Positions 21,563-25,736 of a DNA stretch of 64,000 bases are shown piece by piece. The stretch's first letter is position 1. Every line of letters begins with the position of its first letter. The position numbers were made by a program, and so were the translations under genes. The DNA lies in assembly GCF_026151205.1 (NCBI RefSeq), contig NC_087079.1, positions 3,677,230 through 3,741,229 on the forward strand, in the 5' to 3' direction. This stretch comes from Bolinopsis microptera (taxonomy: Eukaryota > Ctenophora > Tentaculata > Lobata > Bolinopsidae). The notes beneath the pieces were generated by a model. The model was given only the letters and a program-made list of their open reading frames with translations. It had not been told where the DNA came from and did not search any database.

Positions 21563-22572
21563 TCACTCCATTGACATGACAGGTTTCTCTCTAGTGTGTA
21601 CACGCTGGTGTGCTCTGAGAGTAGATTTCCGAGAGAAAGATGAGGAGCATTCACTACACTTGAAAGGTTTCTCTCCAGTGTGAATTGGCTGATGTGATGT
21701 GAGGTGAGATTTCTGAATGAAAGATAAGGAGCATTCATTACACTTAAAAGGTTTCTCTCTAGTGTGGATACGCTGATGTGCTCTGAGAGTAGATTTATGA
21801 GAGAAAGATGAGGAGCATTCACTACACTTGAAAGGTTTCTCTCCAGTGTGAATTGGCTGATGTGATGTGAGGTGAGATTTCTGAATGAAAGATAAGGAGC
21901 ATTCATTACACTTAAAAGGTTTCTCTCCAGTGTGGATACGCTGGTGTGTTGTGAGAGTAGATTTATGAGAGAAAGATAAGGAGCATTCATTACACTTAAA
22001 AGGTTTCTCTCCAGTGTGGATACGCTGATGTGTTGTGAGAGTAGATTTATGAGAGAAAGATAAGGAGCATTCATTACACTTAAAAGGTTCCTCTCCAGTG
22101 TGGATACGCTGATGTGTTGTGAGAGTAGATTTATGAGAGAAAGATAAGGAGCATTCATTACACTTAAAAGGTTCCTCTCCAGTGTGGATACGCTGGTGTG
22201 CTCTGAGAGTAGATTTATGAGAGAAAGATGAGGAGCATTCATTACACTTGAAAGGTTTCTCTCCAGGCCAGTGTGGATACGCTGATGTGTTCTGAGAGTA
22301 GATTTCTGAGAGAAAGATAAGGAGCATTCATTACACTTGAACGGTTTCTCTCCAGTGTGGATACGCTGATGTCTTGTGAGATTAGATTTCTGAGAGAAAG
22401 ATAAGGAGCAATCAGTACACTTGAACGGTTTCTCTTCTGATAGGCCCCGTGACACCCTGGACATTGCGCTTTGGCGCAAAAAAGATGCCTGCTTAAGCTC
22501 AAAAGATGCATTTCTACGCTGAAATTTCTTAAAAAACCCGAGTCGTCAACGTGCATCTCTCGATTCTTTACT

Positions 22573-22823
22573 CGCATCTTTTGGAGTTAGTCTTAACGCC
22601 AAAAGATGCGCTTTAGACCGAAAGCTAGAATCGTAATTCGTGTCGTTAACTCGAAAAGATGCGGTTTAAGAAATATTTTGAAAATTTTGTAACGCGTCGC
22701 TAAATCGCATCTTTTGGAGTTAAGCTTAACGCCAAAAGATGCGGTTTTAGAAATATTTTGAAAATTTCACAACGCCTCGCTAAAACGCATCTTTCTGAGT
22801 TAAGCTTAACTCTAAAAGATGCG
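22573..22823. repeat. Left cluster of three 38-bp palindromes
   Basis: Copies are at 22573-22610, 22706-22743 and 22786-22823. Each is a near-perfect palindrome of half-site CGCATCTTTTGGAGTTAAG; the second and third have AAGCTT at the centre. Half-sites also occur at about 22465 and 22497. Confidence 0.9.
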
Positions 22824-23169
22824 ATTTGGCGTTACGAAATTAAGTATTCATATTGAAATCTTTAAAACTCCCCACTAAAAAGTGAAAACTGAAATCTTAC
22901 CTGACAACACAGATTATAATAGTACCATTTTAACTCTCGTGCAAGTTTACTCCTCTACTGCACTGATTTTTATTGAACTTCCAATGTTCCAAGAACTGTC
23001 CGGAAGATAAATCAGTCAAAAGCAAATGCCTAAATAGCTAAATTACAAACCTCATCCACGCCCCCGAATCAATTGTAGCAACATATAGTCGGGAGTTTTC
23101 CATATCAGCACAGTAGTGTACACAACCTTTGTATTTACTCCATTGTATTTGTAAACTGTACAGACAGTT

Positions 23170-23470
23170 CTAATTAAATGCAGAAGAGTTGTTCCCACTT
23201 CCCAATTACAATCATGACAAACCCGAAATTGAGGATTGTATGCGGTACTAATTTCTGCCATATAAGCACGGTTCATGTCTTGCAAAAATATAGTCATCAA
23301 AATTTTGTATTGTGTAACACAGGAGTGGCGTGCAGCCTAGAGCGCTTGCCTTGCCAGCTTGGCGGGATGATCGCAGGTTCGATACCCCGTACAGTAAATG
23401 TTCATTTTTTTGCACAGATCACTCTGAGCAAAATCATTTTTCATGATAAATATATCATAAACTGACATGG
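23170..23470 (+). repeat. tRNA-headed repeat, copy 1, inside the transposon
   Basis: It shares its layout with 24300-24605: a 'caaa..cgaaattga..' upstream segment, a tRNA-like box A/box B (box B GGTTCGATACC near 23377), then 'gatcactctgagcaaaat' and 'catgataaata'. It is a probable SINE or a duplicated internal segment. Confidence 0.5.
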
Positions 23471-23667
23471 GCTTTGCTAGGTAACTCGAGCAGCGGTAAT
23501 GTGCCGATGAATTTTAGCAAGCTAGTGAATAAGTAGATAATGTATTAAAGATACAAATATAGTCTGATAGTAGTAAAAATTCTTATTTTCTTATTCGTAC
23601 ATTAAGAAAGTTCTAAGTCTAGGAAGTAAGGAGGAAGAACAGAAAGTGTAAAACGCTATATCTAATT

Positions 23668-23925
23668 TTAACAGGAGGTGACCGGGACATGATTTTAGGC
23701 CTGACCGGGACCGGGACCGGGATACAAAATGTGACTTGACCGGGACCGGGACTGAGATTATCAATTTACCGTGACCGGGACCGGGACCGGGACCGATAAT
23801 TTCTGGGATTTCTATCTTACCGGGACCGGGACCGGGACCAAGAATCCTGAATTAACCGGGACCGGGACCGGGGTCCGGGATCATAAATCAGCATTTGACC
23901 GGGACCGGGACAGCGACCGGGATGA
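23668..23925 (+). repeat. CCGGGA minisatellite
   Basis: Runs of 'gaccgggaccggga' are separated by short AT-rich spacers. The apparent Gly/Thr-rich frame across it only reflects the repeat. Confidence 0.85.
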
Positions 23926-24299
23926 AAGATGTGACTTGTTGAAAAAAAAAGAAACAGCGCAGAGATATTAAAATATCACTGCTCAACTAACTGATAAGCT
24001 GTTTGTCACAATTGAAACTGGCGGTTTGTGGCAGATTGTCCTGACATTTGTGACATCGTTCAGATTTGTGACATCGTTGTCGCAAGCTATGGCACCAAAC
24101 ATGGCCCTGGATCAAAATGTGAGTTCGAGAGGTCGATGCAACTTCTAAATTAAACAGTCATCCCATTAAACATCGTGCAAAATCTTACAAAAAACTTTTA
24201 CACGGAACCGCCAGTTTCAAGTGTGAGCACTTTAATTGGGAGTATTACATAACAGCATAGTTTTGTATAGAATAGAAATATTGTACTTAATTGTTTACA

Positions 24300-24605
24300 T
24301 ACAGTCCCTATATCAGTACGTGTGTTTGGTACTATACAAACTCGAAATTGACTAATCCAGTTATTGACGATTATATGCGATGCTAATTTATGCCAAATAA
24401 GCATTTTTTACCAAAATATAAAGACAATTATATAATCATTAAAATTTTATATAGGACATCTCTCAAGTAGCTCAGCGGCCAGAACGCTGTTGCAATAAAC
24501 GGGAGGTTGGTTGTTCTAACCTGCGTGAGCGCTGTCTCAGCTTTTGCCCAAATCACTTTTGAGCACAAATTTTGTTTCGTGATAAATAGAAAATAAACTT
24601 TTGAA
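24300..24605 (+). repeat. tRNA-headed repeat, copy 2, inside the transposon
   Basis: This is a diverged copy of 23170-23470 in the same orientation. It has 'tagctcagcggccagaacgc' as box A and a weak box B ('ggttgttctaacc'). Confidence 0.5.
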
Positions 24606-25094
24606 CCTATCGAGCCAGTAGCATGAGCAAATAATTTAGATAGTAGCAACAACTAAGGTAATCCTAGTGCTCAGGATTGAGGACCTAATGAAGAATCGTC
24701 TGAAAATATCGGAAATTGCCGAAATTCACGACTAGCTGAAAAGGCCAAGGACTATTTGAAAATTGAATCCGGAAAAGCACTTGCCAGTTACAAAGAGGCT
24801 AGGCTTCGACTAGATAACCGACTCCAGTAATCAGTATCAGTACCCAGTGCAGAAGAAAAGAAGATATTTATCACACTCCACTCTTTCTGCTGTTCTTACT
24901 GTGTTTCATCTCTGTTTCAGTGTCATTAACCGCTGCTGGTTCTATCCTGAATGCTTGTTAAACCGGGGACCTGTATAAATATATAAGTTACAGTTATTTT
25001 TTAAAGTTACAAATATCAGCTGATTTGCAAAATGTAGCAATTCAAGAATTCGGAAGAAGAAGTTTGAAATTTCGCGCGAAAGTTTTTCCTAAAT

Positions 25095-25393
25095 CGCATC
25101 TTTTTGAGTTAAGGTTAACTCAAAAAGATGCCATTTGAAAACGCATTTTAAGATTTTACGACTTTATCCGTCAAACGGCATCTTTTGGCGTTAAGCTTAG
25201 CGCCAAAAGATGCGATTTGGGGATAAATCTTGATTATTTCAAGTCAAAATTATTTGATACGACGTCAAATCGCATCTTTTGGAGTTAAGCTTAACGCCAA
25301 AAGATGCGAGTTATTGTAAAAAGATGCGAATTGCTTTGCATTTTTTCAGATAATCGGCATTTTTTTGAGTTAACGTTAAGTCAAAAAGATGCG
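25095..25393. repeat. Right cluster of four 38-bp palindromes
   Basis: Copies are at 25095-25132, 25177-25214, 25271-25308 and 25356-25393, starting 82-94 bp apart. They have the same length and core as the left cluster. Confidence 0.9.
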
Positions 25394-25736
25394 AATTACG
25401 AAAAAATGTCCATGCTGTCACGGGGCCTTCTGATATTGGATTCATCAACGTTCCTGACAATTTTGTGGAATTTCTCAGAACCTTAGAATCCAAATTACAT
25501 ACACTGCTAATATCTTCATGATGTTCTCTGACATGATGACAAAAGTTCTCCTCGTACAGAAAATGAGCTTTACATTTCGGACAAAGAAAACCATGGGATT
25601 TACCTTCTAACTCCTCCTGCTCAGTTTTAATTTCCTTTTTTATTACAGTTGCATTGTTAGGTTTGTAATTCATGATTGTATCAGCAGCCACCACCACTGC
25701 ATCTGGAGATAATTTCCTCTTTTGTGACATAGCCAA

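Follow-up and report, generated by a model that had tools for sequence, protein, structure and literature searches.

What kind of insertion splits a zinc-finger gene in the window G000:C8:3677230-3741229 (the whole stretch of 64,000 nucleotides analysed here), and what might the palindromes clustered at its two ends be used for? An initial annotation of this stretch had described a transposon with inverted termini, an 8-bp target site duplication (TSD) and seven 38-bp palindromes. We followed this description through the searched genome (264.65 Mb, eukaryotic, 232 contigs). The insertion belongs to a real, small and recently active non-autonomous family with unusual palindromic end arrays that are private to it. 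It is probably a cut-and-paste DNA transposon whose subterminal palindromes would bind a dimeric transposase or a partner protein.

The insertion and its target site

The borders of the element and its target site are as follows.

22442..25428, + strand: complete non-autonomous transposon copy, subfamily A, 2,987 bp; borders fixed from eight copies with invariant ends (A before GGCCCC, T after GGGGCC)
22436..22441, + strand: left TSD TCTGAT, 6 bp (flank comparison and empty paralogues)
25429..25434, + strand: right TSD TCTGAT, 6 bp (flank comparison)
22442..22465, + strand: left terminal inverted repeat AGGCCCCGTGACACCCTGGACATT (repeat I25, 92% complementary; 22/24 bases)
25405..25428, - strand: right terminal inverted repeat AGGCCCCGTGACAGCATGGACATT (repeat I25; 22/24 bases)
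25435..25730, - strand: 5′ part of the zinc-finger open reading frame (ORF) split by the element, beginning MSQKRKL (start position read from the sequence)

As the initial annotation had stated, the zinc-finger frame is open across the junction once the element and one duplicate are removed. The corresponding empty site is present in seven paralogous zinc-finger genes of the window: four carry the 26-bp joined flank exactly, one has a single mismatch and two have 2 mismatches. The inverted termini were also recovered, as 24-bp repeats with 22 of 24 bases matching. The limits given previously (22443-25427, 2,985 bp) had to be moved outwards by one base on each side, and the duplication is 6 bp long. 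It had appeared to be 8 bp because, by chance, a T precedes the left TCTGAT and an A follows the right one.

A small family of nearly identical copies

A genome-wide search by the ends yielded eight complete copies and two single ends, so that the window copy does not stand alone.

Complete copies (end pairs): window and L001 (both on C8), L002 (C9), L003 and L004 (C11), L005 (C12), L006 (C13) and C13b (C13:8384444-8396872)
Single end L007 (C5): left end, 80% identical over 399 bases; right end not found in the 7 kb read
Single end L008 (C10): 70 bp of the end retained; a neighbouring frame resembles reverse transcriptase weakly, at a score under the Pfam cut-off

All eight complete copies have the terminal sequence AGGCCCCGTGACA in common, paired as AGGCCCCGTGACA...TGTCACGGGGCCT; the A before GGCCCC and the T after GGGGCC are invariant in 8/8, the ends thus reading AGGCCCC. 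Each copy is flanked by an exact 6-bp duplication, at eight different sites (TCTGAT, TCCTTA, TCGTAA, TATATA, CAGACA, ACACTA, TGCTTA and ACCTTA). An 8-bp duplication, whose absence from other copies the initial annotation had named as counting against its reading, is indeed absent; this corrects the length of the duplication, and the transposon reading stands.

The family was delimited with end patterns of different stringency, the counts of repeats being lower bounds. With GGCCCCGTGACANNNTGGACATT, 17 matches without mismatch were obtained, corresponding to seven complete pairs and three single ends. The partner of the third single end (C13) was found 12.4 kb away, with five extra bases inside the left terminal repeat. 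The exact 12-mer AGGCCCCGTGAC occurs 20 times in the genome: at 18 family ends and at two other sites (L015, L016). The latter were taken as chance: at either site, 3.6 kb of sequence contain neither the half-site core GCATCTTTT nor another copy of the 12-mer, and a reversed control gave 7 matches. A candidate sister family defined by GGCCCCGGCAAAATTTGGACATT (54 matches with 3 mismatches and a close variant with 2) was rejected: two of these loci and the variant (L010, L011 and L012), read over about 700 bp, lie in a G+C-rich repeat unlike the element, and an inverted partner nearby was not seen for any listed GGCCCCGGCAAAATTTGGACATT match. No palindromes were seen in the 560 bp read at L014, which has 3 mismatches to the end. 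The family was not recognised in literature text searches, which did not include comparison with a repeat library (Repbase, Dfam).

The complete copies fall into two subfamilies, A (window, L001, L006) and B (L002-L005 and C13b). Over the 700 bp of the right arm, identity is 99.57-99.86% within A and 98.86-99.86% among L002-L005, against 95.7-96.4% between A and B over 609 columns; in their final 359 bp the three A copies do not differ at all. The right arm of C13b is 98.4-99.2% identical to those of L002-L005 over 627-638 bp; it gave 92.6-93.3% in the 700-bp comparison because its outer part was there aligned through unlike sequence. The left arms, compared in seven copies over their first 1,000 bases, are 98.1-98.7% identical within A, 97.7-98.9% within B and 92.8-93.5% between them. 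The near-identity of arms within subfamilies (about 98.4-99.9% for the right arms) therefore points to recent movement. Subfamily B also carries a long internal inverted repeat of about 430 nt, built from the left core and 96-97% identical in L002 (824-1252 / 1727-2162).

Arrays of dyad-symmetric sites inside both ends

The arrays of the family consist of 36-38-bp dyad-symmetric sites with the half-site GCATCTTTTNGNGTTAA, located just inside both ends. In the window copy they are arranged as follows (palindromes have no strand).

22573..22610: palindrome 1, 16/19 arm matches
22706..22743: palindrome 2, 18/19 arm matches
22786..22823: palindrome 3, 17/19 arm matches
25095..25132: palindrome 4, 17/19 arm matches
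25177..25214: palindrome 5, 17/19 arm matches
25271..25308: palindrome 6, 18/19 arm matches
25356..25393: palindrome 7, 16/19 arm matches; unit absent from subfamily B
22626..22663: decayed palindrome, of which the right half-site 22644-22662 alone is recognisable (direct repeat D1 copy 22620-22693 and half-site pattern)
22480..22509, - strand: two extra half-site cores (22480, 22501; half-site scan)
25319..25327, - strand: a further half-site core, in the spacer that separates palindromes 6 and 7 (half-site scan)

All seven 38-bp palindromes of the initial annotation were thus found at their places, with 16-18 of 19 arm positions matching, and the half-site pattern has 14 matches in the window at 3 mismatches or fewer, compared to 0.03 expected. 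As a constant set, seven does not hold for the family. Counted as 36-mers GCAT...ATGC with at least 14/18 matching arm positions, there are seven palindromes in the window copy, L001 and L006, six in L002, L003 and L005, and five in L004 and C13b, in addition to the extra half-sites and the decayed palindrome at 22626-22663. One 85-bp right unit is missing in 5/5 B copies, and in L004 the third left palindrome has decayed, with a substitution at its edge. The near-regular pitch noted earlier is roughly right, yet the start-to-start distances are 133 and 80 bp on the left and 82, 94 and 85 bp on the right. The 80-bp units 22646-22725 and 22726-22805 form a tandem duplicate that includes the spacer (88%) and was missed by whole-spacer comparison; part of the pitch is therefore duplication.

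These sites are specific to the element. Outside it, the remaining 61,013 bases contain no 36-mer GCAT...ATGC at the above threshold; for any 36-bp palindrome with at least 15 matches, seven lie in the element and two in the rest of the window. In the genome, exact matches to GCATCTTTTNGNGTTAA all fall in family loci (80/80; reversed control 0). A longer full-site pattern gave 102 matches with at most one mismatch and none in the control; among the 100 matches listed, all are in the family.

In the window copy, whose palindromes provide 14 arms, ten of the 19 half-site columns never change (GCAT, TTT, the G of column 12, and TA) and five further columns have one exception, the changes being mostly at columns 1, 11, 13 and 19. 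Mean pairwise identity within this copy is 0.87 for the palindromes (shuffled 0.56) and 0.55 for the spacers (shuffled 0.52), single spacer pairs reaching 0.67 against 0.59 when shuffled. Since the palindromes are 87% alike and the spacers are near the shuffled level, the sites look selected. In single-stranded DNA folding, all seven palindromes gave z scores of -5.0 to -10.0 relative to shuffles. The two arms of the same palindrome are 0.895 alike, compared to 0.859 for arms of different ones (p = 0.07), and the hairpin is therefore not favoured over the dimer site.

Relation to known transposon families

Terminal inverted repeats in 8/8 complete copies, together with a duplication of constant length (6 bp in 8/8, with eight different sequences), probably place the family among cut-and-paste DNA transposons. 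No family compared combines a 6-bp duplication with ends of the form AGGCCC..GGGCCT. hAT and P elements generate 8-bp duplications, a length at which hAT, P or Merlin could have been considered; it is 6 bp in all eight copies here. The foldback-type elements Tm1 and Galileo resemble the family in their composite ends made of repeated modules, the number of units varying between copies. Tm1 differs by its mostly 9-bp duplications and Galileo by its 7-bp duplication; moreover, their repeats are tandem modules, while the present family has the palindrome in common between spacers that are mostly unrelated. Dada elements insert in small RNA genes, and Dada-U6 and Dada-U1 are without terminal inverted repeats; our family has terminal repeats, and the window copy lies in a zinc-finger ORF.

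IS3EU and GingerRoot have the same 6-bp duplication with TA..TA or TG..CA termini (PMC10045372), in contrast to AG..CT in 8/8 copies of the palindrome family. The ends of piggyBac carry 19-bp palindromes bound by two domains from a dimer, and subterminal sequences of piggyBat lower activity (PMC11707139). The likeness lies in subterminal palindromes at defined distances that are contacted by two domains of a transposase dimer; the piggyBac/piggyBat palindromes differ in being 14-19 bp long and of unrelated sequence, with a 4-bp TTAA target, which is not found among the targets of the eight complete copies. In Hermes, the BED domains bind to two subterminal repeats that form a quasi-palindromic pair (PMC10368747), and TNPA recognises the Spm/En subterminal repeats (PMC2613891). 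hAT (Hermes, Ac/Ds) and CACTA (Spm/En) elements thus have binding-site arrays inside short terminal repeats, asymmetric between the ends, as here; both have other termini and short repeat units, and CACTA (Tgmt*) has a 3-bp duplication. piggyBac, Hermes and Spm/En are therefore parallels of working and not of membership.

For vertebrate Mavericks, the published account gives 6-bp duplications, end motifs (AG)3 or (AGT)2 and terminal repeats of 46-1,447 bp (PMC8097293). The palindrome family resembles Polintons/Mavericks in the 6-bp duplication and in the first two bases, AG, and differs from them in that AGGCCCC corresponds to neither (AG)3 nor (AGT)2, and in its 3-kb length, 24-bp repeat and subterminal palindromes. 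Polymerase, capsid and integrase were not seen in any copy. The genome itself contains open Polinton polymerase (pPolB) frames of 1,245-1,261 aa, and the Polinton ends could be compared directly. Six ends were read, those near L047, L049, L051 and L052 not being placed; all six start AGTAGTAT, the four ends of 1,261-aa pPolB copies with AGTAGTATGTAATAT and the two ends of 1,253-aa copies with AGTAGTATACAATAT. As these ends carry a different repeat, with AG alone in common, Polinton parentage was rejected.

The 1,261-aa Polinton polymerase frames also occur as outward-facing pairs 8-11 kb apart (C7:6691702/6702995, C9:6595755/6606125 and C9:663553/671611). The outer ends of the first two pairs are matching AGTAGTAT repeats, which suggests one element of about 14-15 kb with a polymerase gene in each arm.

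Search for a transposase

A longer relative with a transposase between the same ends, which the initial annotation had suggested looking for, was searched by the ends, and none was found beyond the eight copies and two single ends. The window copy contains no stop-free frame of more than 95 codons. Seventeen stop-free frames of at least 85 codons touch seven copies; the Pfam scan covered the interior ones, seven that run into the flanks being left out. Nine interior frames (five copies) gave no Pfam match above cut-off, with one DUF4528 at E 0.05, and an interior frame of L004 is a reverse transcriptase fragment. The 12.4-kb copy C13b was considered as an autonomous element and rejected, its length being due to a long interspersed nuclear element (LINE) and other inserts, for which the Pfam scan covered two long frames of L013. 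In this nested LINE (L013 2443-4605, - strand), Pfam recognised an AlkB-type 2OG-Fe(II) oxygenase domain (E 3e-17) within a frame that resembles ORF1.

With one mismatch allowed in the end, 81 matches were obtained beyond the 18 exact family ones, compared to 100 in the reversed control, which corresponds to background; among the listed matches there was no correctly oriented pair within 20 kb. Viral contigs gave 0 exact matches for the end pattern and 0 for the palindrome pattern.

What the palindromes may do

We favour a non-autonomous cut-and-paste element in which the palindromes serve as putative binding sites. A transposase supplied in trans would cut at AG/CT and stagger the target by 6 bp. 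A homodimer, either of the transposase or of an element-specific partner, would sit on each palindrome, its subunits each occupying a half-site, and the arrays of both sides could then hold the ends together in a synaptic complex. Loss of single palindrome units would be compatible with mobility, as copies have five to seven. Several observations weigh against this explanation. No transposase was recognised in the copies, and no autonomous partner was found by its ends in the genome. The left arms are less alike than the right arms (97.7-98.9% within subfamilies). Between copies, 13/266 palindrome columns are variable compared to 19/284 spacer columns, which does not make the palindromes clearly more conserved; in this count palindrome 7 comes from just three copies, and the last spacer is blurred by a deletion. 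Palindromes 2, 3 and 4 even differ between copies in their inner arms. Selection is therefore read from the within-element comparison only. In a bolder version of the same explanation, which we regard as tentative and rather doubtful, the family would represent a DNA transposon superfamily not yet described, with the 6-bp duplication and the AGGCCC..GGGCCT ends as its marks. A dimeric DNA-binding subunit dedicated to this task would read the arrays of 36-38-bp dyad sites, and the autonomous partner would be lost or absent from the assembly although the copies are nearly identical.

Other uses of the palindromes have to be weighed against binding by a dimer. They might be recognised as DNA hairpins or cruciforms, for example marking or stalling the ends in replication-coupled transposition. 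Their folding, far better than that of shuffles, agrees with this, as do the symmetric changes in both arms of palindromes 4 and 5 (TTGAG/CTCAA and GGCG/CGCC). Against a structural role, sequence is kept in addition to symmetry, as the invariant columns of the 14 arms show, and lone half-sites occur; the likeness between the two arms of one palindrome does not significantly exceed that between arms of different ones, and inverted repeats flanked by a perfect 6-bp duplication suggest that an ordinary transposase is at work. We regard the structural role as unlikely. It is quite unlikely, too, that the palindromes are mainly inhibitory or regulatory, titrating transposase or binding a host zinc-finger repressor by analogy with the subterminal sites of piggyBat. 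The lowered activity of piggyBat (PMC11707139) and the location of the window copy within a duplicated C2H2 gene cluster would be in line with such a role, but subfamily B, which lacks one right unit, is not clearly more numerous than A (five complete copies against three).

That the palindromes are functionless leftovers, produced when the ends grew by tandem duplication or foldback, seems very unlikely to us. The 80-bp tandem duplicate, the differing unit number and the spacer pairs slightly above shuffles speak for such growth; however, beyond the tandem pair the spacers average near the shuffled level while the palindromes are 87% alike, and left and right ends have retained one common site. 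The earlier preference for function over foldback decay is thus upheld by half-sites that are almost invariant, by the divergence of most spacers and by sites private to the family; between protein binding and cruciforms, which it had offered side by side, the comparison of arms favours neither. Movement of the element by a Polinton/Maverick integrase is highly improbable: against the 6-bp duplications and AG starts in common with the Maverick account (PMC8097293) and the presence of open pPolB frames in the genome stand an end that departs from both motifs after two bases, the different start of the six Polinton ends read, the lack of any polymerase, capsid or integrase seen in the copies, and a repeat of 24 bp instead of 46 bp or more.

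Subterminal repeat arrays are already known in several DNA transposons. What distinguishes the palindrome family is that one dyad site of 36-38 bp is repeated up to seven times over its two ends and is found, by exact match, in this family only. The end complex is thereby directly testable, and one oligonucleotide could fish out the binding protein. As the ends and duplication fit no family compared, the missing transposase is worth finding.

A mosaic interior with a core also present in another transposon

The interior of the family is a mosaic, presumably of captured sequence, with no recognisable gene. In the window copy the following parts were distinguished.

22879..23026, + strand: core block K1, up to 91% identical to X elements (which have different ends)
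23117..23479, + strand: core block K2, about 72-76% identical to X elements; holds the first tRNA-like module
24833..25045, + strand: core block K3, about 90-92% identical to X elements
23317..23400, + strand: tRNA-like module (A-box/B-box-like, named by eye), hypervariable (copy alignments)
24466..24545, + strand: second tRNA-like module, diverged (by eye; direct repeats D6, D11)
23677..23938, + strand: minisatellite-like CCGGGA array, found in other loci too (repeat listing and genome comparison)
X element loci: L017-L023, L030 and L031, with the core in common with the palindrome family and different ends

The comparison scored 40 of 358 candidates, and its counts are lower bounds. K1, K2 and K3 occur in the same order in X elements (at least 20 loci for K3); the CCGGGA array and the sequence after it are common to further loci. 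The two X copies read, in 10-kb stretches, are about 2.67 kb long with inverted ends of about 835 bp beginning CACCCCCCGCGCG, and are flanked, by eye, by the 5-bp duplications TATAT and ATAAG. The duplication length and the CAC start presumably indicate a resemblance to Transib. As K1-K3 are present in both, one core resides in two transposons with different ends, and its presence in a transposon with a 5-bp duplication suggests transfer of cargo between unrelated transposons.

Between otherwise nearly identical copies of these two different transposons, variable columns are 3 to 5 times as frequent in the tRNA-like module as in its flanks, and its A-box- and B-box-like parts look kept (by eye). 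For 18 X copies (L017-L023, L036-L046; columns with fewer than 16 letters excluded), 40/79 columns are variable inside the module and 32/192 outside (Fisher p 4.6e-8). In seven copies of the palindrome family, the corresponding values are 28/84 inside and 31/478 around it (p 1.7e-10), insertions and deletions making part of this alignment uncertain. Rfam gave no tRNA match at E <= 0.01 in 15 loci scanned, and ARAGORN no tRNA in seven loci; a match to MIR5512 (Rfam, 39-43 bits, gathering score 139) was taken as a chance fit to a long hairpin. The hypervariability possibly results from transcription-linked mutation or from exchange with other tRNA-like repeats.

Neighbourhood of the element

The zinc-finger gene that received the element is one of a duplicated C2H2 gene cluster (window 21538-39937, - strand), most members of which begin MSQKRKL or similar. 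The window also contains a LINE (16915-20951, - strand) whose open reverse transcriptase frame is 1,075 aa long and has a frame of 266 aa upstream of it.

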